A DNA stretch of 41,764 nt from Clostridia bacterium (GTDB lineage Bacteria; Bacillota; Clostridia; Christensenellales; Borkfalkiaceae), in contig JAIEFR010000015.1 in NCBI GenBank assembly GCA_029066845.1, positions 141,412 to 183,175 of the forward strand, given 5' to 3'. Positions 27,789-41,764 of this stretch are shown here, piece by piece (the first letter of the stretch is position 1; each line of letters opens with the position of its first letter). The translations under genes and the position numbers were made by a program. The notes beneath the pieces were generated by a model, which did no database searches, was not told the DNA's origin, and worked only from the letters and a program-made list of their open reading frames with translations.

Positions 27789-29450
27789 CTACCTCAAACG
27801 TATGGGCAGTTTATATTTTTTGACGAGGACGATAGCCGTTTTGTAGTTATACACCACGACCACGTCTGTCTTTCCCGCCTGAACCCTTCGTTTGACGTAC
27901 ATACTGCTGACCTTTATCGTGTGAGCTTCGCCGTCCGTATCCACGTACTTACACTCATAGGAAGGGCTGTCGTTGCCCCTGTAAGTCGTTTCCGAACAAA
28001 CAAGTTCTCCCTTCACCGCGACGTAATCGGTTTTAAGCAAAGCTTTGAATTTAAGCCGTGCGCTGAGCGGAATGAGCAGATAAACTAAGCCTATTCCTCC
28101 CAGCATCAACGCCTCGACAACGAAGAACCACCGCATACCGCTCCACAGAGTGGAAAACGAAACATCCGAATTAGACGACATAATGAAGAGCGCCGCAAGA
28201 GTTACCGCCATTGACACAAAGCAAGCGCACAACAAAACCAACGCCGTCAGGTAAAACATTTTGCTTTCTTTGACTGGCATATACTCCGAAATATCGGTAA
28301 TTCTTCTTGCGCGCTTAGCCTTTCCCGTCTTTTCGTTTTCAGCGGCTTCAACGACTTCAACGCTTTCCGCACTTTCGACGATTTCGTCTTCCGCAACTTC
28401 CTGGGCTTGCACTGTCCTGCCTGCGTTAATCTTTGCGGGCATTTCGTCCATTATCGTGTATTTGGTCAGTAAATAGCTCTTATCTTCGTTGTACGCAATA
28501 ATTACCTCCTGCCCCTTAAAGAACTGGGAATTGAAGTAATTATACGTGCGCGTAAAACCGCCCTCTCGCTTTTTATCGCCGTCATAATAAACGTAGTAAA
28601 CCCCCACGTCGTCACGGCGGTCACGGTCACCGTCGCTGTCGCGTACGTAACGGGTACGCACGGTAACCTCGGTAACTATGCCGTTAGTCACCTCCATTTG
28701 CTCCAGAATTTCTTTTTTAATGCGCGAGCCCCTTAGCATATAAGCGGTGAACAGCGCAAGAGCAGCGGCAAACAATACGCCTACCACGATAAAGAATATG
28801 TTGAATTTGGAGTCCAGACTGCCGTTTTTTACGTATTCCGCAACGGCAATTATGGTAAGCAACACAACGAAAAAGCACGCTATGCCCAGAAAAAACTTAG
28901 GGAACATAACGATTTTTTCTTCTACCTTTATAGGCTTGGAAGGGTCCAGCCTTATCTTCCGCACCCTGTCTGGCGTTATTGTGAAATTATCCTTGGGCGC
29001 GATTTCTTTTACGAGTATCTCTTCGTTCACGCCGTAGCCCGAGGGGTTTTCCATAGGCTCGTAGCCGTTTTTGGTAAAAAACTCTTGCGACTCGGTGGTC
29101 TGCATAACGTAGATGCGGGGCAGCTCCTTTTTTGCCGCTCTGCGTTCAAGCGCCTTCATCAGGCTCTTTGCGGCTTTTTCGGAATGCGCTCCGCTTACGG
29201 TCACCAAAATGCCCGCGTTGCCTTCCTTGTCCATACTCGCAAAGCCAACCAGCTCCTCATCCTCAAACGCCAGAAACGAATAGGTTTTCGCAAGCAATTT
29301 GTGCAGCTTCTGTTTGTCAGTCTGCTCTTCAGACAAAAGCTTTGAAATATCGAAGTACACGTCGGAAGGCAATTGCACACGGTTATTTTCACGCCTGAGC
29401 AAGTCCTCCACGCCGCCGATATGTTCCAAACTGTATTTTTCGGTATTCAT
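27789..29450 (-). CDS. GNAT-like domain fused to a four-helix membrane protein with two DUF3592-like modules
   Basis: 553 residues; not a protein I know. Residues 1-150 look like a GNAT acyltransferase: SFLAFEDEELVGFASMD, then a helix AAKSLMKALERRAAKK and IYVMQTTESQEFFTKNGYE. Two membrane helices follow (184-205, 217-239), then a soluble beta-rich module (248-335) with YYVYYDGDKKREGGFTRTY and GQEVIIAYNEDKSY, resembling DUF3592. After an acidic linker (340-380) come two more helices (399-424, 441-463) and a second, similar module (470-553). So the membrane half is duplicated. No Shine-Dalgarno; the promoter -10 is six bases from the ATG. Single-gene unit. Function unknown. Confidence 0.75.
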   Translation of the reverse strand: MNTEKYSLEHIGGVEDLLRRENNRVQLPSDVYFDISKLLSEEQTDKQKLHKLLAKTYSFLAFEDEELVGFASMDKEGNAGILVTVSGAHSEKAAKSLMKALERRAAKKELPRIYVMQTTESQEFFTKNGYEPMENPSGYGVNEEILVKEIAPKDNFTITPDRVRKIRLDPSKPIKVEEKIVMFPKFFLGIACFFVVLLTIIAVAEYVKNGSLDSKFNIFFIVVGVLFAAALALFTAYMLRGSRIKKEILEQMEVTNGIVTEVTVRTRYVRDSDGDRDRRDDVGVYYVYYDGDKKREGGFTRTYNYFNSQFFKGQEVIIAYNEDKSYLLTKYTIMDEMPAKINAGRTVQAQEVAEDEIVESAESVEVVEAAENEKTGKAKRARRITDISEYMPVKESKMFYLTALVLLCACFVSMAVTLAALFIMSSNSDVSFSTLWSGMRWFFVVEALMLGGIGLVYLLIPLSARLKFKALLKTDYVAVKGELVCSETTYRGNDSPSYECKYVDTDGEAHTIKVSSMYVKRRVQAGKTDVVVVYNYKTAIVLVKKYKLPIRLR

Positions 29451-29546: not shown

Positions 29547-32500
29547 TCAGTCTTTATCCGTTTCGTCGTCGAAGCCCAAATCGGTTACGGGGTCCGCAGG
29601 GGTATAGAAGCCGCCGACGTCGAATACTCTGCCGTCGTCAACAGGCATAGGCGCAACGTAATTGCGCACCACCGTTCTGACGGGAGCCGCCTGAGCCTGC
29701 GCAGTAGGCGCGGGCTTCTTGGTCGTGTCTATCTTGGTGGTAGTCACAGTCGTCATAACTGCGTCGGGAGGTACCTGCGTTGATGCGGGGGCCGCCGCAC
29801 TTTCGGGCGCGGCAGGTGCCGCAGCCTTCTTTTCCCTGCTGTCAAGTGCGTTGTTGACTTCCGTCCTGATAAGCTCGGTCAGCTTATCCAGCGATATGCC
29901 GTTGGAAATGACCTGCTCGCCGCCGGAATGGGCTGCCATATTCGCAACCTGCGTTTCCAGTTTTGACTGCGCAATCTGCTGTTCGGTAGCCTGTCTGGAT
30001 TTAAGCTCCGCCAGTTCCTTTGCCGTCTGTTCGGCTTTAAGCGCAGCCAATTCCGCCTGCATCTGCATCTGAAGGAACTGCGCCTCGGTTACGGTACCGC
30101 CGCCCGCCGCCACAGGTTGCTGCTGAGGCGCGTACTGGGGCTGAGGTTGAGGCTGGAGAGGCATTTGCATCATTTGCGGCATAATTTGCGGCATCATCTG
30201 AGGCATAATCATCTGCGGCATCTGCGGCATTTGCTGCTGTGACATACGCTCCACTCTGCGCTCCTCACGCTCTTCGCGACGGCGTTCTTCTCTTTCCTGC
30301 TTCTCGCGCTCTTCCTTTTCGAGCCTGCGCTGTTCCTCCAGCTCTTCCTTCTTGCGCTTTTTCTTCTTTGCCGCAACTATTAGGCAGATAAGTAAGATGA
30401 GTAACAACAGAGCCACTGCCGCAATTACCAGCCACAGCCAGTTTGCTTTGAGGAAGTTAAGCGTGCTTCCGAAGAACGCCGCAGCACCGCTCTGAGGCAC
30501 GGTATAGCTTATTTTGTCGCTGACCGCGCCGAAGTTTCCGTCCGCAGTCTTGAATAGAACGTTTCCACTCTCCGCGTCTATGCCGCCGAATACCGCTTCA
30601 ACTCTGAACGACTTGCCGCCCTTCAATTCGGGAGTTTCTATGTACTGTCCCGCATCGTCGTAGTACTTATAAAGCAAGCTCAAAGTTTCAGCATTGATAA
30701 GTTTGGTGATATTCTCGGGCAGGTTGAGCGTTGCGCCGTTCTTACCCTTCACCCACATCTCGCTCACGTCCACAACCAGAGGCGTAATGTTCCACTTCAA
30801 TTCTGCGGTTGCATTGTCCAAAATGGTGATTTCGCTGTCGAACAGCTTAGCCGCGAAAAGTTTCAGGCTTGCGGGTTCCGCCGTCGTCGGTATTGCCCAC
30901 TTATAGTCGGGGGTGGCTAACGTCAGGCGCGCCTTGTAGCCGCTCTGGCTGACGTTCCTCAATTCCAAATAGTCGCCGCTGAGAGTGATTATATCCTTAT
31001 ATTCGGCATAGCTGCCGCCCAGGTAATCGGCAAGACTGATATACTCGCCGCTGAACGTAATATTTCCAACCGTAGGCAACGCGATTTCCTTCTTCTCTAT
31101 CGTAACTCTTATTACGTCCAGAAGCAGAATATAGTCGTCCTGCGCACTGCTGCCCAGCTTGACTTCCATCATATATTCGCCCGCCTGCACGGGGTATTCT
31201 CCGTCCGCAAACTTTTCCGCGGTAAGGGTTGCACCCTTATAATAGGTCACGGTAAAGTCGGAAATCTTTACTCCGTTTATGCTTACCACTTCAAGCTGAT
31301 TAAAGTGCGGCTGCCCGTCGTAAACCACTTTGCAGTCCGAAGCTTTTATTCCGTCAATCATAACGCCGTCTATAACCGCGTACACGGGGTCGTTGTTGCT
31401 GCCCGTCGTAACGGTGTCCGTAGGGTCGGAGCCGTTATCGACAACTTCGAAGTTAGCTGCAGCAGTCGCCGCAGGGTCTATGTATGCGCGCACCGTGTAA
31501 GTCTTTGGCGAGGTCATATCTACCGCATCGATTATCTCCTGTAGGGATACAACCGTTCCGTTAGAATCGATGTACTCGTACTTGACGAAACTTTTATACT
31601 TGTCGTCGATATCGAGAATTTTATTGTAAAAACTTACTACGGTCGTGCCGTCGCTCTTGGTCGCCTGCACCTTTTCATACTTGAAATTGGTGTACAGATT
31701 TTTCTGCTTAATCTCCCACGACAAAGTCAGCGTTGCCGCCGTAACGTCGGGGTCGTTGAAATTTGCCGTACTCCAGCTAAAATCGGACTTTTTCGCCGAG
31801 GCGGAATAGCTGTCTACGTTCCTTTGCCTGTCGCTGTACTGATATGCGGGCACAAGCGTAAGTCCCGCGGGAAGCGTGCTTTCCTTAATTCTTACGGCGT
31901 AATTGACGTCATCGAATTCAATCGCACCCGTATAATCCTTGGTCTGCTTTTGACCGTTTGAATCGGTGTAATAGTATTCCCACTTGACGCCCGACAAATC
32001 AAACGTGCCCTTGACAATCTTCCAAGCGATAGTCAAATCGTAAGTTGCCGACTTATTTCCGCTACCGACATCAAACTCTTTCGTGTTGTCCGTCGATTTA
32101 AGCGCGACCGTCAGAGTGTACGTACCGCCGACAGTTGTAACCGCGCTCTTTGACTTATCTCCGTTATAGCCACCGTTATATTTAGCCGTATCAACCTCGA
32201 TATAACTCATATCGGAAGGAATATTTACGCTCAACTCGTACTGAACTCCAACAGTCGTGCTACCAGTCTTTAAAGTGAAAGGCAGTTCGCCGCCGTCCTC
32301 TATCTTTCCGCCCGTTGCGCCATCAACCGTGTAATCCCACTTGATTTTGCTTAAATCTATCGAACCGGAGGTTACGTTAAAGTTGAACGAATTCTTGTTT
32401 TCAGCAAGCTTATAGTTGGCGTTGTCACCCGCAGTACCGTTAAGCACCGCATACAGCGTATGACTGCCGTTAGCTACTGTATCGGGTATCGATAATATTG

Positions 32501-34073
32501 TAGCCTTGGCATTATTCGTGTCGGGCGTTCCCGATAAAGTTGTTGTCGTTGTATCGTAATAGAATACAAAGGAAAGACTGTCACCTGCAACACTGTCCTC
32601 GGTTGCCGTAACCGTTACGCCGCTTGTGCCGTATTCCCACGAGCCATTCGTTTCCGAACAAGTGAAAGTAAAACTCAACTCCTTTTGCGTAATTTCAAAG
32701 TCCAGCTTTTTTACACCCGTGTTAGGCGTACCGTTCCAGCAATAGTTGTTAGTATCTCTAAGGCTGAGTGTTGCGGTGTATTCATCTACGTACTTCGCCT
32801 CGAATGTGCTTGTAGTATCCGTAACAGCCGCACCGTTCGCTCCCGTTACAGTGTTACCGTTCGCTCCCGCAGCCGAATCCACTTTCATTGTAGTACTGTT
32901 AAAGCCCGTCATAATGAACTGCTGCGGCGAGCCGTTATATGTATGCTCCGCCGTGATACTCGGCACGGTTAACGCTTTTTGAGTTATTGTTATACTAATG
33001 GGGTCGTTCGATGTGGGATCCCAAACCGCGCCGCAGCCATCCGCAATATCAAATTCAAATTTATAAGTTCCTGCATTTACCAACGTACAGTCACCGGCGG
33101 TATCTATCGGGCAAGTACCAGTACCGCTAAAATAAGTGCTTACGTTTCCACTCACGTCAGTATATGTAACCGATGAAAGTTTAACTTGATTTTGATTATA
33201 AGCAAATTTGAATACTTTTCCGCCAGGCGTGTACTCCGCCGAGGTTTTATCTACGGATACCGATACGGGTGATACAGTTATACTTTCGGACATAGTTGCC
33301 GTAGATGTCCACTCACTCTTAAGGCCGTTATTATGATACGGAAAATAGCCCAACATACCAAAATATGCCGTATAGTTCTGAGCTGTATTTGTATTATTAG
33401 TCATAGTGACGACCGGTATAGATATTGTAGAGCTATACTCATCCCCAATACTCTTTGCCTTTATTTTTCCGACAGAATAATCCGCACCTGTTGATGATGT
33501 CGATTTTCCATCAGCACAGAGGAAAGACATAGTGCTAGACTTGTCACTACCTCCGTTAGAGCTGTTTCCGTAGTAGAAGAACTCGGCATAGCCTATAGCA
33601 ACATTAGGGGTACCGGTACAAGAAATTTTCTTTATGTATAAAGCACAACTAAAATCAATTTTATATTCGGTATAAGCCGGCACGTTAATTGTACAGGTGA
33701 TCCCAACATAACCCGCTATAGCAGGATTTTGATTATCCTTTGTTATAGTTGCCTTTTTAGAGTCTGCATCAAACATAGCAACCCCATAAGCTGTGTCAAC
33801 TGCTACAAAACTTGAATGAGGAACAGGTATGTAAGCTCCACCGGATTGAATATACTGTTTAGGACCACTCTCCGCATACGTTACTGCAAAAGTAGACGCA
33901 GTCGCCGCGTCGGCGGTTACCTTGTTATCCGTTTTTAAAAATAAAAAAACTGTGCCGACACATAGTGCGACACAGAATATGGGCGTGAGTATATAAAGCA
34001 ACGCGCGCTTTACGCTTTGCTTAGAACTTAAAAGTGCTTGCCCCCCCCCAGTGGTCATTTTAAACATCTTCAT
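29547..34073 (-). CDS. Large MBG/Ig-like surface protein with a long cytoplasmic tail (family member A)
   Basis: 1508 residues. A basic start (KQSVKR) is followed by a hydrophobic signal or anchor helix (24-46). A long ectodomain with MBG/Ig-like modules follows (for example ITQKALTVPSITAEHTYNG and the repeated 'YTATLSLRDTNNYCW'-type strands). A C-terminal membrane helix lies near 1211-1234 (LWLVIAAVALLLLILLICL), then KKKKRKK, so the last 274 residues should be cytoplasmic. The tail has a charged coiled coil (EE/RR-rich), a Met/Gln/Pro repeat (PQMMPQIMPQMM), a second helix, and a C-terminal motif RTVVRNYVAPMPVDDGRVF. AAGGAG before the ATG; promoter at 34113-34141. Nine Gs lie in codons 9-11. 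No LPxTG anchor or catalytic motif. Probable surface adhesin or sensor; the role is unknown. Confidence 0.75.
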   Translation of the reverse strand: MKMFKMTTGGGQALLSSKQSVKRALLYILTPIFCVALCVGTVFLFLKTDNKVTADAATASTFAVTYAESGPKQYIQSGGAYIPVPHSSFVAVDTAYGVAMFDADSKKATITKDNQNPAIAGYVGITCTINVPAYTEYKIDFSCALYIKKISCTGTPNVAIGYAEFFYYGNSSNGGSDKSSTMSFLCADGKSTSSTGADYSVGKIKAKSIGDEYSSTISIPVVTMTNNTNTAQNYTAYFGMLGYFPYHNNGLKSEWTSTATMSESITVSPVSVSVDKTSAEYTPGGKVFKFAYNQNQVKLSSVTYTDVSGNVSTYFSGTGTCPIDTAGDCTLVNAGTYKFEFDIADGCGAVWDPTSNDPISITITQKALTVPSITAEHTYNGSPQQFIMTGFNSTTMKVDSAAGANGNTVTGANGAAVTDTTSTFEAKYVDEYTATLSLRDTNNYCWNGTPNTGVKKLDFEITQKELSFTFTCSETNGSWEYGTSGVTVTATEDSVAGDSLSFVFYYDTTTTTLSGTPDTNNAKATILSIPDTVANGSHTLYAVLNGTAGDNANYKLAENKNSFNFNVTSGSIDLSKIKWDYTVDGATGGKIEDGGELPFTLKTGSTTVGVQYELSVNIPSDMSYIEVDTAKYNGGYNGDKSKSAVTTVGGTYTLTVALKSTDNTKEFDVGSGNKSATYDLTIAWKIVKGTFDLSGVKWEYYYTDSNGQKQTKDYTGAIEFDDVNYAVRIKESTLPAGLTLVPAYQYSDRQRNVDSYSASAKKSDFSWSTANFNDPDVTAATLTLSWEIKQKNLYTNFKYEKVQATKSDGTTVVSFYNKILDIDDKYKSFVKYEYIDSNGTVVSLQEIIDAVDMTSPKTYTVRAYIDPAATAAANFEVVDNGSDPTDTVTTGSNNDPVYAVIDGVMIDGIKASDCKVVYDGQPHFNQLEVVSINGVKISDFTVTYYKGATLTAEKFADGEYPVQAGEYMMEVKLGSSAQDDYILLLDVIRVTIEKKEIALPTVGNITFSGEYISLADYLGGSYAEYKDIITLSGDYLELRNVSQSGYKARLTLATPDYKWAIPTTAEPASLKLFAAKLFDSEITILDNATAELKWNITPLVVDVSEMWVKGKNGATLNLPENITKLINAETLSLLYKYYDDAGQYIETPELKGGKSFRVEAVFGGIDAESGNVLFKTADGNFGAVSDKISYTVPQSGAAAFFGSTLNFLKANWLWLVIAAVALLLLILLICLIVAAKKKKRKKEELEEQRRLEKEEREKQEREERRREEREERRVERMSQQQMPQMPQMIMPQMMPQIMPQMMQMPLQPQPQPQYAPQQQPVAAGGGTVTEAQFLQMQMQAELAALKAEQTAKELAELKSRQATEQQIAQSKLETQVANMAAHSGGEQVISNGISLDKLTELIRTEVNNALDSREKKAAAPAAPESAAAPASTQVPPDAVMTTVTTTKIDTTKKPAPTAQAQAAPVRTVVRNYVAPMPVDDGRVFDVGGFYTPADPVTDLGFDDETDKD
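29572..29675 (-). repeat. 104-bp direct repeat, copy 1 (C-terminal motif of surface protein A)
   Basis: Aligns without gaps to 37134-37237, with eight mismatches that I count, about 92 percent identical. Seven are silent and one is Val/Ile. It codes for the conserved C-terminal motif from RTVVRNYVAPMPVDDGRVF to the TDLG stretch. Confidence 0.85.
33964..34014 (-). repeat. 51-bp exact direct repeat, copy 1 (signal-anchor start of surface protein A)
   Basis: Identical base for base to 41688-41738. It codes for the basic residues before the membrane helix and the first part of the helix (VKRALLYILTPIFCVAL). Outside it the two genes diverge quickly into their ectodomains. Confidence 0.9.
34041..34049 (-). 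repeat. Nine-G homopolymer in the first codons of surface protein A
   Basis: Nine consecutive C on the plus strand, that is nine G in the coding strand, forming Gly9-Gly11 of the protein. It lies 25-33 bases into the gene. A one-base slip would shift the frame before the signal helix. Such tracts are known switches in surface genes of other bacteria; here it is a candidate. Confidence 0.7.
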
Positions 34074-34112
34074 AATATTTCTCCTTACGTAACAAATACT
34101 TTGAGTGTTGGA

Positions 34113-34141
34113 ATTATATCACATATTTTTAAAATTTTCAA
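34113..34141 (-). promoter_or_regulatory. Promoter of surface protein A
   Basis: Minus strand: TTGAAA (34141-34136), 17 bases, TATAAT (34118-34113). About 33 bases of leader with AAGGAG before the ATG at 34073. Near-consensus, so the gene should be well expressed. Confidence 0.85.
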
Positions 34142-34187
34142 TACCTTTCGACAAAATTTTTAAAAATAGTTGTTAATTTTGCATAAA

Positions 34188-34203
34188 ACACAATATATTG
34201 TGG
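34188..34203. promoter_or_regulatory. NrdR-box-like palindrome ACACAATATATTGTGG
   Basis: Fifteen of 16 bases fit acaCwAtATaTwGtgt, and the inner 14 bases (34189-34202) are a perfect palindrome. It lies nine bases past the hydratase stop and about 47 bases upstream of the -35 of surface protein A. No second box at the usual three-turn distance and no overlapping -10 is seen, so it may be chance in AT-rich sequence. Confidence 0.4.
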
Positions 34204-34211
34204 GTGGTATA

Positions 34212-36437
34212 TCACTTTTTGTTGAAATTTATAAGGCAGCCGCTTAAAATTATCTTCTTTTCCTCCTCGGTAAGCGCGCCGAGAGTCAAATAGATATTCT
34301 TGGCCTTGCCTTCGGAAATATGCTTTGCGGGTATTGCCGCCTCTCCCTTTTCGACGAACGAGCGGATATTTTCAATATATATATAATCGCCAGTTTTGTA
34401 GTCGAACTGCTTGCAGACGAGGGGCAACATACCCCAGTTTATCAGGTTGGAACGGTAACGCTTGGTTGCGTACTCCAAAGCGATATTGGCAACGCCGCCC
34501 AGCACGCGCTGGCAGGAAGCCGCCTGCTCGCGCGCGGAACCGTCGCCCGGCTTTTTGGCAACTACCGCGCTGCCCAGCATCGTGTCCTTTGCAAGCTTTA
34601 TGCCTACTTTTTCGAGTATCTCTGCGTTAAGCGCGCCGTTTGCCCTGCGCTCCTCTTCCGCCTTTTTGATTTCCTTTGCCCTGCCCACGTATGCGGGGTC
34701 CTTGCGCGAAAGAGCGAACTCGGCAAGCCTTAGCGGGTTGGAACGGTAGGACGAAGTTTCGCCCGAAGGAATGAGTTCGTCGGTGGTAGTGACCTCGTCG
34801 TTGATGACAGAGGCAACGCAGATGAGCAGGTTGTCCGCAAGGGGAAGCTGTTCGGGCCAGTCGGCAATGTTGTTGCCGTAAATAAGCTGTTCTTCGGGCT
34901 TGGGGTTGCCTGCGCCGTGATATACGCGGTGCTCGTAAATAGAGCCGTCGAAATAATACTTTTTAACCTTTTTGGTGTACTCAACCTCGGTTGCGGGGGT
35001 CAGAACGCCGCCGTTTGCCGCCGTTGCCGCAATCGAACGCGCGTCCATAAGAGCGACCGCCGCAAGCTGACCTTCGCCGAGCTTGCTGCCCTCCCTGTTT
35101 TCGAAGTTGCGCGTGGTGTGACGAATGGAAATGCCGTTGTCCGCAGGAGTGTCGCCCGCACCGAAGCAGGGTCCGCAGAACGCCGTTTTGCAAATCGCAC
35201 CCGCGCCCATAAGCGCGGAAATATAGCCGTTGTCCACAAGGCACTTGTACACGGGCTGGGACTGGGGATAGACGTTGAGCAGAAACTCGCCGTTGCCGCA
35301 GTTTTTGCCGCGCAAGATTTCGGCGGCTTCGGCAACGTTTTCGTAGGTGCCGCCCGCACAGCCTGCAATTACGCCCTGGCTGACGTACACCTTGCCGTCC
35401 TTAATTCTGTCGAGAAGGCGGTAAGGCTTTGCCCCCTCGCCCTTTAACTTGTTGCCCGCCTTTTCCACTTCGGAAAGAATGTCTGCCGCGTTGTCGATGA
35501 CCTCGCGTATGGTGTACGCGTTGGACGGGTGGAACGGAAGCGCAATCATAGGCTCTATTTTGGAAAGGTCGATGACAACCGCGCCGTCGTAGTATGCGGG
35601 GTCGGTGGGGTGAAGCTCCTTAAAGTCACCCTCTCTGCCGTGAATTCTGAAAAATTCTCTGGTGGTTTCGTCCGTTTCCCATATGCTGGAAAGGCAGGTC
35701 GTTTCGGTGGTCATAACGTCGATGCCGCTGCGGAAGTCCATTGAAAGGTTCTTTATTCCGGGGCCGATAAATTCCAGAATTTTATTCTTGACGAAGCCCT
35801 TTTTGAAGGTCGCGCCGACAAGCGCGATTGCAACGTCGTGGGGACCTACGCCCTTTCTAGGCTTGCCCTTTAAGTAGACTGCGATGATTTCGGGGCGTTT
35901 GACGTCGTAGGTCTGACCGAGAAGCTGTTTGACAAGCTCAGGTCCGCCCTCGCCCACCGCCATAGTGCCGAATGCGCCGTAACGCGTGTGGCTGTCAGAG
36001 CCGAGAATCATTTTGCCGCAGCCCGCCTCGGCTTCACGCATATACTGGTGAATTACTGCAATGTGCGGGGGAACGTAGTTGCCACCGTACTTTTTAGCCG
36101 CCGAGTAGCCGAATAAATGGTCATCCTCGTTGATGGTGCCGCCCACCGCGCACAGCGAATTGTGGCAGTTGGTCAGCGTGTAGGGCACGGGGAATTCTTT
36201 CAGCCCCGAAGCCTTTGCCGTCTGGATAATTCCCACGTAGGTTATGTCGTGGGATGCAAGCGCGTCGAAAGAGATTTTCAGGTTCTCGCCGTCGCCCTTG
36301 TTGTGGCTTTTCAGAATCGAATACGCAAGCGTGCCCTTGATGGCTTTCTGCTTTTTCGCCTCAACCATAAAAGCGTGGTTTTCCTTAACGAGCGTGCCGC
36401 CCATATAGTAAACGCCGCCTTTGATAAGTTTAATCAT
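34212..36437 (-). CDS. Aconitase-superfamily hydratase (YbhJ-like)
   Basis: 741 residues from the ATG at 36437, which has GGAGGT before it. The open frame reaches 36485, but its extra 16 residues precede the ribosome binding site. Aconitase features: SDSHTRYGAFGTMAVGEGG, C in AGCAGGT, CGPCFGAGDTP for the [4Fe-4S] cluster, and the C-terminal swivel with GSAREQAA and RSNLINWGMLPLVCK. The overall form resembles the uncharacterised YbhJ/'hydratase' group rather than TCA aconitase A or the two-subunit LeuCD. The substrate is not known; citrate/isocitrate activity is possible but not shown. Own promoter, divergent from the gene at 36570. Confidence 0.85.
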   Translation of the reverse strand: MIKLIKGGVYYMGGTLVKENHAFMVEAKKQKAIKGTLAYSILKSHNKGDGENLKISFDALASHDITYVGIIQTAKASGLKEFPVPYTLTNCHNSLCAVGGTINEDDHLFGYSAAKKYGGNYVPPHIAVIHQYMREAEAGCGKMILGSDSHTRYGAFGTMAVGEGGPELVKQLLGQTYDVKRPEIIAVYLKGKPRKGVGPHDVAIALVGATFKKGFVKNKILEFIGPGIKNLSMDFRSGIDVMTTETTCLSSIWETDETTREFFRIHGREGDFKELHPTDPAYYDGAVVIDLSKIEPMIALPFHPSNAYTIREVIDNAADILSEVEKAGNKLKGEGAKPYRLLDRIKDGKVYVSQGVIAGCAGGTYENVAEAAEILRGKNCGNGEFLLNVYPQSQPVYKCLVDNGYISALMGAGAICKTAFCGPCFGAGDTPADNGISIRHTTRNFENREGSKLGEGQLAAVALMDARSIAATAANGGVLTPATEVEYTKKVKKYYFDGSIYEHRVYHGAGNPKPEEQLIYGNNIADWPEQLPLADNLLICVASVINDEVTTTDELIPSGETSSYRSNPLRLAEFALSRKDPAYVGRAKEIKKAEEERRANGALNAEILEKVGIKLAKDTMLGSAVVAKKPGDGSAREQAASCQRVLGGVANIALEYATKRYRSNLINWGMLPLVCKQFDYKTGDYIYIENIRSFVEKGEAAIPAKHISEGKAKNIYLTLGALTEEEKKIILSGCLINFNKK

Positions 36438-36466
36438 AGATAACCTCCGTGAGTGTGTACGGATAT

Positions 36467-36495
36467 ATTCTACAATAAAACGCATTTTTTTTCAA
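36467..36495 (-). promoter_or_regulatory. Promoter of the aconitase-like hydratase
   Basis: Minus strand: TTGAAA (36495-36490), 17 bases, TAGAAT (36472-36467). Leader about 23 bases with a ribosome binding site. Its -35 is 40 bases from the -35 of the divergent gene. Confidence 0.8.
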
Positions 36496-36534
36496 CCGTT
36501 ATTGACAGGAATTTAAAATTTGTCGCCGCGCGGG

Positions 36535-36563
36535 TTGCGTTTTGGCGCGTTTGAGGTTATAAT
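36535..36563 (+). promoter_or_regulatory. Leaderless promoter of the small membrane protein at 36570
   Basis: Plus strand: TTGCGT (36535-36540), 17 bases, TATAAT (36558-36563), then AGCCTT and the ATG at 36570. The predicted transcript starts at the ATG; there is no room for a Shine-Dalgarno. Confidence 0.75.
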
Positions 36564-36569
36564 AGCCTT

Positions 36570-37055
36570 ATGAAAACCTTTAAATATAAGTTTACTCCGC
36601 TTATGAAAGCGTTGATGATACTCGGTATGGTGCTGTGCGCCCTCGGGTTCGGACTCAACCTTTTTTATTGCATACGCAACGGCGCGAGCCACGCAGCCGA
36701 CCCCGTCTACCCCGTTTTGCAGTACGTGCTGATGTTTGTTGTTACCGTTGTGCTGTTCGTACTGCTTTTCAGTATTCTGCTGTTTTCGGCGTACTCGGTT
36801 GACGACAAGTTTTTCAAGACTAAGTTCGGGCTGATTGTAAGCAAATATGACGTGACCAAAATAAAAGAGGTCGTGCTGGACAGAAAGACGAACAAGCTGA
36901 CCGTCAATTTCGAAAGCGGCGAATTTATTGTGATTGTTGTCAAGCAGGAATGGTACGAAGATTTTATTAACGCCGTGCTGGAAGCAAACCCCAAAATCGA
37001 ATACACCGTCAACTCGCTGGAAAACGACGGCACGAACAAGGACGAAAAGAAATAA
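36570..37055 (+). CDS. Small membrane protein with a PH-like C-terminal domain
   Basis: 161 residues. Two membrane helices (about 12-33 and 48-73), then a soluble domain (76-148) reading SVDDKFFKTKFGLIVSKYD, IKEVVLDRKTNKLTVNF and a final helix EWYEDFINAVLEANP. That order (strands, then one C-terminal helix) resembles bacterial PH-like domains (bPH/YcxB-type) placed after two helices. The C-terminus is charged. Function unknown. It is the only plus-strand gene in this half, with its own promoter and terminator, lying between the hydratase and surface protein B. Confidence 0.65.
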   Translation: MKTFKYKFTPLMKALMILGMVLCALGFGLNLFYCIRNGASHAADPVYPVLQYVLMFVVTVVLFVLLFSILLFSAYSVDDKFFKTKFGLIVSKYDVTKIKEVVLDRKTNKLTVNFESGEFIVIVVKQEWYEDFINAVLEANPKIEYTVNSLENDGTNKDEKK

Positions 37056-37070
37056 ATTGAAAATGTAAAA

Positions 37071-37107
37071 GCCCCGCGCACGGTGTGCGCGGGGCTCTCT
37101 TTTTTTT
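37071..37107 (+). terminator. Strong terminator, possibly bidirectional
   Basis: Eleven-base GC-rich stem, 37071-37081 with 37085-37095, three-base loop, followed on the plus strand by TCTC and eight Ts (37100-37107). It ends the gene at 36570. On the minus strand, four Us follow the stem, so it may also end surface protein B, whose stop codon overlaps the T-run. Confidence 0.85.
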
Positions 37108-40100
37108 AATCTTTTTTGTCCGTTTCGTCAGTTAAGCCCAAATCGGTTATAGGGTCCGCGGGGGTGTAGAAGCCGCCGACGTCGAACACTCTGCCGTCGT
37201 CCACGGGCATAGGCGCGACGTAATTGCGCACCACCGTCCTGGTTGCGGGAGCCGCGCGGTCAACGGGCGAAGCCTGCTTCTTGGTCGTGTCTATCTTTGT
37301 TGTAGTCACGGTGGTCATAACCGCGTCGGGAGGGCATACGGGAGTTGCATCCTTTGCCTCCTCCTTCTGTTCCGCCGACTGCTGCGCGTTGGGCGCAAGC
37401 ACGCTTTTAAGCGCAAGCGTTATAATCTCCGTCAACGTATCCACGGTCACGGCTTTGCCCGTATTGGCGTCGGTCATTAAAGGCTGACCTCCTTTGAGTT
37501 CGGCGCGGAGCTTTGCCATTTCACATTCCACCCTTGCCGCCACGGACTGTTCCGAACGGAGCGCGGAAAGCTGGTTTTCAATGCTGATAAGCAGCGCGCT
37601 GTCGCCTATGCCGTTCGCCGTCTGGGGCTGTGCCTGCACCTGAGGCGCCTGTTGTGCCTGAGGCATTTGCATCTGACCGCCCATCATCTGGGGCATCATT
37701 TGCGGCATCATCATCTGAGGCATTGCCTGCTGCTGATTGAGCCTTGCCATACGCTCCTCGCGCTCTAAGCGGCGTTCTTCCTGCTCGCGCTTCTTCTCTT
37801 CCTTTTCTTCAAGTCTGCGCTGCTCCTCGCGCTCACGCTTTTTCTTAGCCGCGCGTGCTATCAACGCGATTACGGTTATGAACAGTATAAGCGCAACGAC
37901 TGCAATAACCAGCCACAGCCAGTTGGTCACAACAAACTTGACTATCTTATCCCAAAGCGTAAGCTCCTTTGCAGGAGTTGTATAAGGCACGTTAAGAACC
38001 TGCGCCACGGTGCTGTCAAGCTTAAAGTTAGTTTCATCCAAAAGGTCAGCTTGCATATAATAAGACGTTTCGTATGCAAGTTCGTCTGCCGCTACCTCCT
38101 GAGTGCAAGCTTCGTCCGCAAAGAATTTCAAGCCAACCGCTTGCGCAATCGCCGCAGCGGATATGCCGTCGCTCTTGAACACGGGCTTGCCGTCCGCGCC
38201 AATAGTTGCAGTAATGACTGCCCTTTCCAAAGTCCAATCAACCGCTCTTTCAATTGTCGGGTCGAGAACTATTTCGTCATAGACAGCAACTGCGAACAAG
38301 GTCTTTTTAAGCGTTGTGCTTGCCGTTGCCCATTCATAGCGCGCGGTGTCCGTCAATGCAAATACCGCCTTGTATGTACCTGCGTTTAAGCCCGCGATAG
38401 TTTTGCTTTCGACGAACGACATAAGTGCGCCGTCATAGCCCGTAAAGTCTGTTGCCGCGGGTTTCAGTTCGTTGCCGTTATAAGTTAAGCTGCCGCTATA
38501 TACGGGCAATGCAACTTTTACTTTTGCAACCTCGATTTCAACGGTTGTCGTAAAATCGTTTGCGCCGTCGTTATACATAACCGTTATAGTCTGCGTGCCT
38601 ACTTCAAGCAAACCGCCGTCGCGCAATGTTGCGCAGGTCACGGTTAAATCTTCAACCTTAACTTCCTCTTTCGTGCCATTATTGAACTCGATTTCTGCCT
38701 TAATCTTAGCTATAACGTCGTCCAGCGTGCTGTTTATATCAAACTTTGCGCCGTCCTCCACCTTTGCCGAAACGCCCGTTACCACCGCGTCACTGATGAA
38801 AATCGCAAATTCAACGGGCGCTATTCCGCCGTTATAGTTTGCGGGGTCGGTCGGGTCAAACTCAAACACAACCTTATATTCGCCCGCTTCCTTAATTTCG
38901 GTAACCGTATCCCAGTTGCCGTTCACAAGCTTCTTGTAAACTGGCGCTTTGGGCGTCGCCGCCGCAGGTATACTTGCGGGGTCGAGGTCGGCAACCGTAA
39001 ATGCGAAGCCGCTTCCGTCAGGGTCATAAGTCGCCTTATATCCACCGTTGTCGTCCTCCGTCAGTCCGCTGATTGCGGAGGGCTTAAACGTCGCGCCGCT
39101 CGCGTCTACGTCCGCCTTTGCAACGTTAACGGTGAAGGTTGCAGTACTACCGTCCGAATATGTAACCGTTATAGTGCGCTGACCTGCCGCAAGCAAACCG
39201 TCGCCGTGCGTGGAATCGGCTGTCAATGTGTACCCTTCCGCACTGAGCGTTTTCGTGTCGCCATTGTTGTACGAAAGCACGACTTCCAGACCGTCTTTCA
39301 AATTTTCCAAACCCTTGGAAGCGTCCAGAGTAAAGCCTTCGGGCAAGGTATACGTAGGCGTTATTCCGTTTACAGCAACGTCGGTTACCGTAACCGTAAA
39401 CGTCGCCGTTTTTGTAACGTCGCCCTTTTTCCACGTAACCGTAATTTCGTTATTTTCCGAAGAGAAATTGTCGGGAATAGTTACGGTGTAGCTGTCTTTA
39501 TCCAGTGTATCCCCGTCACCGTTGTTGAAAATTGCATCTACTGACAACAGAGTGTCTATGTTCAAATCTTCAACCTTAGCGGAGCTATAAATAACACCTG
39601 TCTGCGTATAGTTTGGCGTAAGCGTATCTACCAGCACCGCGCTAACCGTTACGGTTTTAACGTTTGTTGAAGTCTTTCCGCCGTAAATTACGTTAAACGC
39701 GCACTGTCCCGAGGTGAGCACGTTTTTATCGTTTGCAGGCGTTACCTTTACGGTGAAGTTGTCGCTGGCACTCAACGTCTTTTTGGTTCCGTTGCCATCA
39801 TCATAAGTTACTTCCACCGTCAAATATTGCTTAATTGTATTTGCCGCGTCACCTTCCCAAAGCTTGGTGCCAGCAGGAACGTTGACTTCTTTGATAGTAA
39901 CTTTATCTATCCCTGCAACGGCAACCGTAATAGTAGTGTCGCCTTTAAGTTCCTTTTCGGTGCCGTCCACAGAGTATTTATAGATTACTTCGATTTTAAA
40001 ATCGCCGTCTTCCAAAGCAAAATCATCGGGCAAAGAATATTCGGTTGCTTTCAACGTCTTGCCCGTCGTGCCGTCGTTGTTTTTAATCTTGACGGTAAGC

Positions 40101-41764
40101 TGACCTTTAAGCGCGTCAGCACTTGTGGAGGTGTAAACCGTCGTGCCGTCGTGCGTTATAACAAGCTCTGCAGGAACCACCGCAAGTATTTCTGGGATAG
40201 TAACCGTGCAGCTTATGCTCGGTTTGTCTTTAAGCTGAACTGTAAGCTGCTTATTTTCGCCCGCAGTCAGCGTAGTGCCGGTTGCAAACTGAATTTCACT
40301 TACGTCGGCAATGCCGCCGTCCGTGCCGTCATTGTTGGTCTTTCTAACCTCTAAGCGATTAAGTACGTCTTCAAGCTTGGTCGAGGTAAATATGTCGCCC
40401 GAGCCAGTAAACGTCGCGGATATACCGCCAACCGCTATTTGCTCAACATTTATCCGCGTGCTGCCATTGCGGGTCTTGAAATTTTTATTGTCCGTGGGCG
40501 TGAAAGTCCAGTTATAATCTTTTGTAGTGCTTAAAACCTGACCGCTATCCCAGACGAGGGTGCCCTTGCCTTCCCACAATGTAGGTGGCTTTATGGTGGG
40601 GAAACCGCTGGTCGCGGTACCCGAAAAATACTTTTTAGTCGTTCCGTCCGCTTCCTCACCGTAATCAACGGTTGGCAGGAACGGGTCGATTTCCTGTTGC
40701 TCTATGGTAAATGTCAGTGATTTTTCCGCCGTGCCGCCGCCAACCCATTCAATGCCGCCAGCGATTGCCGCAACCTTTAAATTAAACTTGACTTTGTACG
40801 TACCCGATTCGGTTGCGGTAAGCGTTCTGTTTACCCCTTCCGCACTTAAACTGTACGTGCTTGAGGCTATCGTATCTTCGTCGAAATCCAACGCTTCAAC
40901 CGTTGTTTCTATATTTTTATAAGCGTTTGAATACGTTATATTAGAGCCGTATGCGGTTACGCTCGGTACATCATATTTGAACGCAAACGTTTTATTATTA
41001 CCGTCATACTCCTTCGGCGTGGTATCAGTTGTCGTAGGCGCCTTTATCTTTGTTGCGGTTACGTTCGTGGGGATAATCGTAAATACCTGACTACTCGGCG
41101 CAAAACTAGCAGTCGCGTCTGCGTGAGCACTGTAAAACGCATAACGGGTTATCTCTCTTTCTTCTGCGGTATTATTTTCAATTACAAGCCCGTATTGTTC
41201 GGGATGCTGTCCGACAGTATAAGTTACACCGTCGGCGTGGTGTTTACCGACCCAATCCGTAACGTTATTAATATTACTCACGTACGACCAAGTATTCAAA
41301 GCATAGGACGTAATCTCATCTTCTGACCAACTATCGTAAAACTTGTTTGTTCGTCCCGCATTAGGATTCAACGAAAATGACGTATTATACTCTATCGTAT
41401 AAATCGTATATGCTGGAACAGTAATTTTCAAAATTACTGGTGCGGCAGCCACTGCACTTTTATAAGTACTGTTCGATTCGACGCTAAAGGTGAAACTGTT
41501 GGAAGCCGCCTGCGCCGTTATGCCCGTAGGTTGCGTTGCAGACATAGTAGAATAATTACAATTCTGCGTTAATATGTTGGCTGTTTGGTATCTGATTTCA
41601 CCGAATTCTATCGTAGGCTGATTTGCCGCAGCTTCGGCGGTTACCTTATTATCGAATTTTAAAAATGAAAAAACTGCGCCTACACACAGTGCGACACAGA
41701 ATATGGGCGTGAGTATATAAAGCAACGCGCGCTTTACGGCACTTTGCTTACTTCTTAAAAGTGC
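37106..41764 (-). CDS. Large Ig/MBG-repeat surface protein with a long cytoplasmic tail (family member B), 5' end off the right edge
   Basis: 1552 residues in view. The frame stays open to the window edge and reads ALLRSKQSAVKRALLYILTP, matching member A one-to-one, so the TTG at 41725 is not the start; the real start is beyond 41764. After the signal helix come a divergent region, MBG-like modules, then about six Ig-like repeats of roughly 85-95 residues (pattern: YNDG..KTLS..YTL....L..G...ITVTY.DG). A membrane helix (LWLVIAVVALILFITVIAL) is followed by KKKRERE and a cytoplasmic tail with a charged coiled coil, a PQMM repeat, and the same C-terminal motif as member A. No sortase signal or enzyme motif. 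Surface protein of unknown ligand. Confidence 0.75.
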   Translation of the reverse strand, partial: ALLRSKQSAVKRALLYILTPIFCVALCVGAVFSFLKFDNKVTAEAAANQPTIEFGEIRYQTANILTQNCNYSTMSATQPTGITAQAASNSFTFSVESNSTYKSAVAAAPVILKITVPAYTIYTIEYNTSFSLNPNAGRTNKFYDSWSEDEITSYALNTWSYVSNINNVTDWVGKHHADGVTYTVGQHPEQYGLVIENNTAEEREITRYAFYSAHADATASFAPSSQVFTIIPTNVTATKIKAPTTTDTTPKEYDGNNKTFAFKYDVPSVTAYGSNITYSNAYKNIETTVEALDFDEDTIASSTYSLSAEGVNRTLTATESGTYKVKFNLKVAAIAGGIEWVGGGTAEKSLTFTIEQQEIDPFLPTVDYGEEADGTTKKYFSGTATSGFPTIKPPTLWEGKGTLVWDSGQVLSTTKDYNWTFTPTDNKNFKTRNGSTRINVEQIAVGGISATFTGSGDIFTSTKLEDVLNRLEVRKTNNDGTDGGIADVSEIQFATGTTLTAGENKQLTVQLKDKPSISCTVTIPEILAVVPAELVITHDGTTVYTSTSADALKGQLTVKIKNNDGTTGKTLKATEYSLPDDFALEDGDFKIEVIYKYSVDGTEKELKGDTTITVAVAGIDKVTIKEVNVPAGTKLWEGDAANTIKQYLTVEVTYDDGNGTKKTLSASDNFTVKVTPANDKNVLTSGQCAFNVIYGGKTSTNVKTVTVSAVLVDTLTPNYTQTGVIYSSAKVEDLNIDTLLSVDAIFNNGDGDTLDKDSYTVTIPDNFSSENNEITVTWKKGDVTKTATFTVTVTDVAVNGITPTYTLPEGFTLDASKGLENLKDGLEVVLSYNNGDTKTLSAEGYTLTADSTHGDGLLAAGQRTITVTYSDGSTATFTVNVAKADVDASGATFKPSAISGLTEDDNGGYKATYDPDGSGFAFTVADLDPASIPAAATPKAPVYKKLVNGNWDTVTEIKEAGEYKVVFEFDPTDPANYNGGIAPVEFAIFISDAVVTGVSAKVEDGAKFDINSTLDDVIAKIKAEIEFNNGTKEEVKVEDLTVTCATLRDGGLLEVGTQTITVMYNDGANDFTTTVEIEVAKVKVALPVYSGSLTYNGNELKPAATDFTGYDGALMSFVESKTIAGLNAGTYKAVFALTDTARYEWATASTTLKKTLFAVAVYDEIVLDPTIERAVDWTLERAVITATIGADGKPVFKSDGISAAAIAQAVGLKFFADEACTQEVAADELAYETSYYMQADLLDETNFKLDSTVAQVLNVPYTTPAKELTLWDKIVKFVVTNWLWLVIAVVALILFITVIALIARAAKKKREREEQRRLEEKEEKKREQEERRLEREERMARLNQQQAMPQMMMPQMMPQMMGGQMQMPQAQQAPQVQAQPQTANGIGDSALLISIENQLSALRSEQSVAARVECEMAKLRAELKGGQPLMTDANTGKAVTVDTLTEIITLALKSVLAPNAQQSAEQKEEAKDATPVCPPDAVMTTVTTTKIDTTKKQASPVDRAAPATRTVVRNYVAPMPVDDGRVFDVGGFYTPADPITDLGLTDETDKKD
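37134..37237 (-). repeat. 104-bp direct repeat, copy 2 (C-terminal motif of surface protein B)
   Basis: Partner of 29572-29675. Differences are mostly at third codon positions, so the protein motif is under selection or the two copies have been homogenised. Confidence 0.85.
38520..40445 (-). repeat. Tandem Ig-like protein repeats in surface protein B
   Basis: About six diverged units of roughly 85-95 residues, for example those ending ITVTYSDGSTATFTVNVA, ITVMYNDGANDFTTTVEI and ITVTWKKGDVTKTATFTV. One MBG-type unit (EAGEYKVVFEFDPTDPANY) lies between the last two. Bounds are approximate. They resemble bacterial Ig-like (Big_3/Big_4-type) folds. Confidence 0.6.
41688..41738 (-). repeat. 51-bp exact direct repeat, copy 2 (signal-anchor start of surface protein B)
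   Basis: Identical to 33964-34014. Beyond it toward the start, the genes differ by one inserted codon (Ala) and a few bases but remain alignable to the window edge. Confidence 0.9.

Follow-up and report, generated by a model that had tools for sequence, protein, structure and literature searches.

A modular family of predicted surface proteins with a constant tail and candidate poly-G switches in an uncultured Clostridia bacterium

Two neighbouring genes at the end of a Clostridia contig encode predicted surface proteins that look alike at both ends and different in between, which raises the questions of whether they belong to a larger modular family and of how the members of such a family might be expressed. 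The stretch of DNA analysed (the window; 41,764 nucleotides, G000:C7:141412-183175) belongs to a genome of 1,561,092 bases in 25 contigs that was judged 99.1% complete. Window positions 1-27724 comprised housekeeping genes of an ordinary kind (20 proteins scanned), with products including riboflavin kinase, TruB, RbfA, IF-2, NusA, RimP, GcpE and NrdR, as well as proteins of purine synthesis and of the amino acid kinase and aldehyde dehydrogenase families. An unusual fusion protein of 553 amino acids was encoded at 27789-29450 on the reverse strand, with an N-terminal GNAT acetyltransferase domain (Pfam E 3e-10) followed by hydrophobic stretches resembling membrane helices.

The two open reading frames in question were confirmed on the reverse strand, at 29547-34073 (gene 1) and 37106-41764 (gene 2). 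The right edge of the window is the end of contig C7, so that the real start of gene 2 lies outside the window; the contig ends three bases past the expected end of the poly-G tract of this gene, and the TTG at 41725 is the ORF finder's pick only. Both genes belong to the type A copies defined below, and their features were as follows.

29547..34073, reverse strand: gene 1 (type A, in frame, ON), ATG at 34071-34073, 1508 amino acids
34136..34141, reverse strand: -35-like box TTGAAA of gene 1, with a 17-nt spacer to the -10-like box
34113..34118, reverse strand: -10-like box TATAAT of gene 1
34081..34086, reverse strand: Shine-Dalgarno-like AAGGAG of gene 1
34041..34049, reverse strand: coding poly-G tract of gene 1, G9 forming codons 9-11 (Gly-Gly-Gly) between start codon and signal helix; proposed switch
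33906..34040, reverse strand: signal peptide region of gene 1, QALLSSKQSVKRALLYILTPIFCVALCVG...
33006..33905, reverse strand: variable head of gene 1, ~300 amino acids, boundary approximate, matched by few paralogs
30453..33005, reverse strand: stalk of gene 1, of the class ending YTVPQS; main matching region for 12/23 paralogs
30363..30452, reverse strand: C-terminal membrane helix of gene 1, KANWLWLVIAAVALLLLILLICLIVAA
29550..30362, reverse strand: tail of gene 1, ~270 amino acids, with a charged coil, PQMM segment, second coil, LDKLTELIRTEVNNAL and two conserved motifs
29715..29771, reverse strand: tail motif 1 of gene 1, PPDAVMTTVTTTKIDTTKK, invariant in 24/24 members
29598..29678, reverse strand: tail motif 2 of gene 1, RTVVRNYVAPMPVDDGRVFDVGGFYTP, mostly invariant, with related ends in divergent relatives
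37106..41764, reverse strand: gene 2 (type A), start lost at the contig end, frame unreadable
37844..37933, reverse strand: C-terminal membrane helix of gene 2
37109..37843, reverse strand: tail of gene 2

The first-pass annotation had described the two proteins as sharing a signal helix, a membrane helix, a charged coiled coil, a PQMM-rich segment and a C-terminal motif. All of these were found in both: the signal helix KRALLYILTPIFCVALCVG, the membrane helix with NWLWLVIA, the charged coil with its PQMM-rich stretch, and the C-terminal end PPDAVMTTVTTTKIDTTKK ... VRNYVAPMPVDDGRVFDVGGFYTPADP. The ectodomains, which had not appeared to align by eye, gave no match to each other by BLASTP (E<=1e-3) or phmmer (1e-3). 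The labels MBG-like and Ig-like that had been attached to them did not hold, as no MBG or Ig family of Pfam matched either window protein at E<=1.

The last 74 residues had 24 matches in this genome (E 1.1e-44 to 1.3e-28), so the shared tail is not due to chance. All 24 members lie on open frames, of 1523-1982 codons each, which sum to ~124 kb or ~8% of the genome. An N-terminal query returned 22 rows, representing 19 genes and three second-frame rows. Nineteen of the 24 copies, termed type A, carry the signal ..LLYI[LF]TP[IL]FC; the other five, type B (C9:156624, C10:247, C10:5525, C15:124902 and C20:74108), start with MKIKRKTF.GG, have a different signal peptide and are without a poly-G tract. 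The median pairwise aligned identity among the 24 members was 20% in the ectodomain, 63% in the membrane helix, 62% in the tail (240-295 residues across the family, after the helix) and 78% in the last 85 residues. The first-pass proposal of a modular family, varying outside and common inside, which predicted many same-tail copies with differing ectodomains, is well supported: this genome holds 24 of them, three close relatives hold 13, 14 and 22, and divergent versions occur elsewhere in the genus. Neither of the two outcomes named against it, a tail absent from other genomes or alignable ectodomains, occurred.

Pfam domains at E<=0.01 were found in some of the 24 members (DUF6273 in five, Big_3 in two, Invasin_D3 in two, MBG_3 in one and Big_13 in one), and LPxTG in none of them. 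Sortase-dependent wall adhesins have LPXTG, a helix and a short basic tail, whereas the present proteins lack LPxTG and carry their long tail after the helix. Bacterial Ig-like and DUF6273 surface proteins are similar in bearing Big_3, Big_13, Invasin_D3, MBG_3 or DUF6273; the present family adds to these the 240-295-residue inside tail and the candidate poly-G switch. Because the genome encodes PBP transpeptidase domains (two matches), the cell is probably walled, a wall-less cell is unlikely, and a long stalk could carry its head past the wall.

The modular family thus stood, but the first-pass annotation had missed the main feature of the type A copies (19/24), a poly-G tract at the gene start. 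Type A starts share the layout ATGAA...AC.AC[TG] - G run - CAA[GA]CACTTTTAAG, in which the G run follows the eighth codon and lies ahead of the hydrophobic signal helix. Whole tracts were readable in 11 of the 19 copies and comprised one G8, three G9, five G10 and two G11 runs, one of the G11 copies spending a G on the preceding codon. Three of these 11 were in frame, all G9 and on three separate contigs (gene 1, C17:1270 and C20:103590), and eight were out of frame; the frame at C21 was read by eye, the 60 upstream bases needed by the frame script being absent there. The downstream frames were open in all 24 members despite the out-of-frame tracts, and the out-of-frame copies with enough upstream sequence had promoter-like boxes, a ribosome site and a start codon.

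In the remaining eight type A copies, gene 2 included, the contig ended at the tract or within ~30 bases after it, and two of the eight carried poly-C junk. Many contigs end at or near type A starts, so that the assembly seems to be broken up by the tracts themselves. The contigs of this genome with ends at or near type A starts were C4, C7, C9, C12, C14, C15, C18, C20, C21, C22 and C24. Relatives with at least four tail matches were assembled in 140-390 contigs, with the exception of G068 (50 contigs).

The genome contains 19 runs of at least eight Gs on both strands, of which 18 lie at family starts or in adjoining contig-end junk: the 11 tracts read whole, an orphan upstream half that closes C14, and six runs next to type A genes, in the junk with which C9 ends and C12 begins. 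The other run, at C12:73040 (L218:1502-1511), is a G10 that fills part of the 17-base gap of a promoter-like TTGACA...TAACAT, ~80 bases upstream of a gene with the lipoprotein-like product start MKAKKIVAVVMGAALAGTLAIGMSACSGG. It is the sole G8+ run away from the family, and a candidate promoter-type phase switch. One apparent locus was present at both the C14 end and the C21 end, with 12 and 11 Gs, respectively; this difference is a weak hint of length variation, because the C14 end carries other mismatches. Loss of mismatch repair as a source of tract instability was rejected as far as loss of MutL is concerned, since MutL is present in the genome.

As read from the assembly, then, there is a family with a tract, mixed frames, open frames and the mosaics described below. 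We consider it probable that these are the marks of a large modular surface family in which 19 of the 24 copies are phase-variable by poly-G slippage, the heads are shuffled by recombination, and one tail is kept inside. It is much less probable that the tracts are fixed and the out-of-frame lengths are assembly errors in an ordinary, constantly expressed, expanded adhesin family. Homopolymers are error-prone and their lengths can be misread in assemblies, clear poly-C junk stands at two contig ends beside family genes, and of the 25 poly-G loci taken from five further genomes in the genus, most were contig-end junk or lay off gene starts. However, the nearest contig end is 1.3 to 26 kb away for seven of the 11 whole tracts (within 550 bases for the other four), and lengths of 8, 9, 10 and 11 are all present. 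A plain adhesin would need no G run, and only one of the 19 G8+ runs, in a promoter-like spacer, is away from the family. Campylobacter poly-G tracts can be sequenced accurately on Illumina, according to the available portion of one report (PMC6321876).

Ectodomain matches among paralogs were found for gene 1 in 12/23 and for gene 2 in 11/23, mainly in the stalk, and few paralogs matched the first 250 residues (phmmer). C8:10520 (type A, out of frame) and C10:5525 (type B) were 86.5% identical over their last 2.9 kb and unaligned in the first half, which contains the head, signal and switch; their stalks gave dN 0.036 and dS 0.34. The stalk of gene 2 matched locus L242, on a G124 MAG contig, with 68% identity, in a match that ends at the membrane helix and excludes the head. 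The stalk-to-tail part of gene 1 was closest to L249 (57%), the head of which was only 30% identical, and the head of gene 1 was closest to L260 (40%), with a stalk identity of 26%. To judge from these alignments, heads, stalks and tails recombine, between species too. The median pS was 0.25 in the type A signal region (19 copies), compared with 0.51 over the final 85 codons, 0.64 where the tail begins (its first part) and 0.69 across the 120 codons preceding the helix; the signal beside the switch is the least diverged among the regions compared.

Such strong mosaicism and the low divergence of the signal region would also suit a system in which the out-of-frame copies are silent donor cassettes for a few expressed loci, as in antigenic variation by gene conversion, and the tract is incidental. 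This seems very improbable, as the out-of-frame copies with enough upstream sequence bear promoter-like boxes, a ribosome site and a start codon of their own as well as open frames, the in-frame type A copies are spread over three contigs and mark no single locus of expression, and the stalk dN/dS is ~0.1 for one out-of-frame type A copy and its type B partner. Phase variation of the individual copies, together with recombination among them, is the reading we prefer.

Most positions of tail motif 2, VRN[FY]VAPMPVDDGR[VI]FDVGGFY, were invariant among the 24 members. The residue after VRN was F or Y in 24/24 members of this genome versus 12 of 40 relatives' loci (44 fetched, four giving no reading), and its fixation here but minority in relatives fits homogenisation within the species. 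The first-pass annotation supposed one common cytoplasmic partner for the tail, and we infer the same. The tail may instead be a mere cytoplasmic anchor or a low-complexity linker that has no specific partner, which would be compatible with the poly-G switch and which we rate as a real, if less likely, option. Its coiled-coil and PQM-rich parts differ in length and look disordered by eye, and no curated family clearly claims the tails of the window genes. All Pfam matches of genes 1 and 2, tail included, were under the cut-off, an NCBIfam match of gene 1 reached 16.3 bits versus a 22-bit cut-off, and sequence searches of the PDB gave no match to the family profile at E<=0.1, two weak chance matches to the gene 1 ectodomain and weak coiled-coil matches only to the tail. 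On the other hand, the two C-terminal motifs are near-invariant in 24 copies and have related motifs in divergent species, as would be expected of a docking motif, and we retain a common partner as the preferred reading. For the other 22 members, Pfam matches were judged by E-value alone, e.g. Phage_Gp23 (1.6e-6) and FAM176 (5.7e-6). The suggestion that the family may be undescribed agrees with the window tails having no Pfam match that passes the cut-off.

Type B genes were preceded by a structured, attenuator-like leader with a terminator-like hairpin (L025, L033, two in L036, and L041). Fifteen leaders were compared: five from this genome, three from close relatives (L091, L112 and L243) and seven from divergent species (L182, L186, L188, L189, L190, L194 and L196; L195 and L261 were excluded as cut short). 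The divergent leaders were picked by terminator sequence, so that their hairpin is present by choice; the family genes of divergent species are preceded by a different sequence with the same layout. The hairpin ended at most ~110 bases from the gene start in 13 of the 15 leaders, and lay ~220 bases before the gene in L194 and ~660 in L182. The strand past a GGC-containing loop (GTACC.. in this genome, GTATCTCTT in divergent species) can pair with bases just before the terminator, and the summed pairing over the 15 leaders was 117.5; when the first strand was shuffled 500 times, it was 82 (sd 4) and never exceeded 93.5. A long-range antiterminator pairing is suggestive only, because the strand was motif-chosen and three own-type leaders pair over only 5 bases. 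An Rfam scan of 11 loci at gathering thresholds found four tRNAs, an L10 leader and a ZTP riboswitch, and none at the leaders; a permissive scan around one leader gave nothing at gathering score.

A more far-reaching version of the preferred reading, which we regard as speculative and rather unlikely as a whole, is that 19 poly-G switches, each acting independently and together allowing up to 2^19 surface states, feed one cytoplasmic signalling or cytoskeletal partner via the common docking motif, with type B copies, under an undescribed leader RNA, supplying a regulated baseline. If it were true, cells would look, sense or stick differently via a single inside pathway.

The distribution of the tail was examined in relatives, all of which are MAGs; 44 of their loci were taken from GTDB 220 contigs. 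Profile A2 matched 13 of 93 genomes of the genus (E<=0.01), with 24 matches in this genome (G000), 22 in G124, 14 in G131, 13 in G023, 28 in G010, 11 in G130, 10 in G020, 7 in G068, 6 in G040, 4 in G021, 2 in G050, 1 in G064 and 1 in G128; the G128 match is weak and partial (E 0.003), as are many weaker rows of G010 and G020 partial. The broader profile A4, with at most the best 12 candidates scored per genome, matched at least 16 of 398 genomes of the taxonomic family at E<=0.001, all in one of its 18 genera. With A2 and A4 combined, the tail was found in at least 18 of the 93 genus genomes, and, among the matches listed, in no other genus (398 genomes, 18 genera). The narrow profile A1 matched 4/121 genomes, this one included, all of the same genus. 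Divergent tails retained P.DAV.TTTTT-like and FD.DGFY-like ends. A phage or mobile origin was rejected, as neither the exact tract-plus-start pattern nor the tail had any match in IMG/VR.

Both frame states also occurred in the close relatives: four tracts included two in frame (G131) and two out of frame (G131 and G023), and a fifth, in G124, was in frame as read by eye. The single G064 copy had the same signal helix without the tract. Among 20 more divergent loci, 18 had no tract within the stretch read, including 5/5 from G010; one, in G040, had a G10 poly-G start with a different flank and signal, and one, in G020, ended with its contig at the same place.

L199:1226-1235 (G040:C352): second type of poly-G start, with signal KISLFTLIMLFFCTA, in a more distant species
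Start of L197 (G020:C275), reverse strand: copy cut by the contig end

The switch may have had more than one origin, or may have been grafted repeatedly. In G010, with its 28 tail matches, many of them partial, several of the five loci had repeat-like sequence upstream of the gene by eye.

A run of nine or more Gs was present in 85 of the 93 genus genomes. Poly-G as a genus-wide trait was rejected, since most of the 25 loci inspected (from G024, G050, G130, G006 and G061) were contig-end junk or away from a gene start. At G061:C1:104077 (L309:1502-1511), a G10 run immediately precedes a possible TTG start, which would open a long frame whose beginning is signal-like (KSHTRKLLIAVLSVILSVCLC). 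The G061 genome, of the same genus, is without a tail match, and this run may be a switch that acts at the ribosome site of a different surface protein.

Most known cases of random surface switching by G runs come from host-adapted Proteobacteria, with a few from other lineages. The poly-G tracts of Campylobacter are spread across many different genes, whereas the coding tracts described here are confined to one constant-tail protein family; the likeness is in tracts of at least 8 Gs, mainly of 9 and 10. The Opa proteins of Neisseria are Gram-negative outer-membrane proteins of barrel fold, which the one C-terminal membrane helix and tail of the present proteins do not fit, and they are switched by CTCTT repeats rather than a single-base G run. 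They resemble the present family in that their genes are multi-copy and scattered and have a repeat within the part that codes for the leader peptide, the run here standing just before the signal helix. Gardnerella offers a parallel in its long G/C tracts outside Proteobacteria, some of them in surface genes.

In the accessible parts of the published accounts, tracts of at least 8 Gs switch genes in C. jejuni, 52% of Campylobacter poly-G tracts in one data set are 9G and 30% are 10G, and the median in one data set is 20 phase-variable tracts per genome, mostly inside ORFs (PMC6321876). The Opa genes of Neisseria, in an account available in part, number ~11, are scattered over the chromosome, carry their repeat in the leader-peptide coding sequence and switch at ~1e-3 per cell per generation (PMC3745409). 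The G/C tracts of Gardnerella are of at least 8 bases, ~70% of them upstream of ORFs and some in surface protein genes, and one was shown to vary in length; the available text describes no shared-tail family (PMC11287997). Among the literature matches listed, from sources within reach (preprints and most subscription papers lay beyond it), no description of the present family was found. The breaking of assemblies by the tracts may explain why it had gone unnoticed.

We infer that slippage takes place in the living population, that the proteins are displayed at the surface, and that the tail and a selective agent have the parts outlined here. The members would be type I membrane proteins with a signal peptide, a variable head, a repeat stalk, one membrane helix and a tail inside. 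DNA polymerase would slip on the run of ~9 Gs just past the start codon so that daughters gain or lose a G, bringing the protein into or out of frame independently at 19 copies, and each cell would display a random subset of heads. Recombination between copies would exchange not only heads, stalks and tails but the switch as well. Through the constant tail, the displayed heads would all be tied to common machinery in the cell, probably an anchor or adaptor recognising both C-terminal motifs, and type B copies, with a terminator-like-hairpin leader in place of the tract, look regulated rather than random. The likely use is a change of adhesins under pressure of host antibody, phage or changing surfaces.

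In uncultured Clostridia, these genes are a strong candidate for a contingency family that is Opa-like and as yet undescribed. A Clostridia genome of 1.56 Mb would devote ~8% of itself to one such family with a single inside tail, the two motifs of which are a clear lead to the inside component. It becomes testable whether such bacteria deploy contingency genes at the scale of Neisseria or Campylobacter against host antibody or phage.
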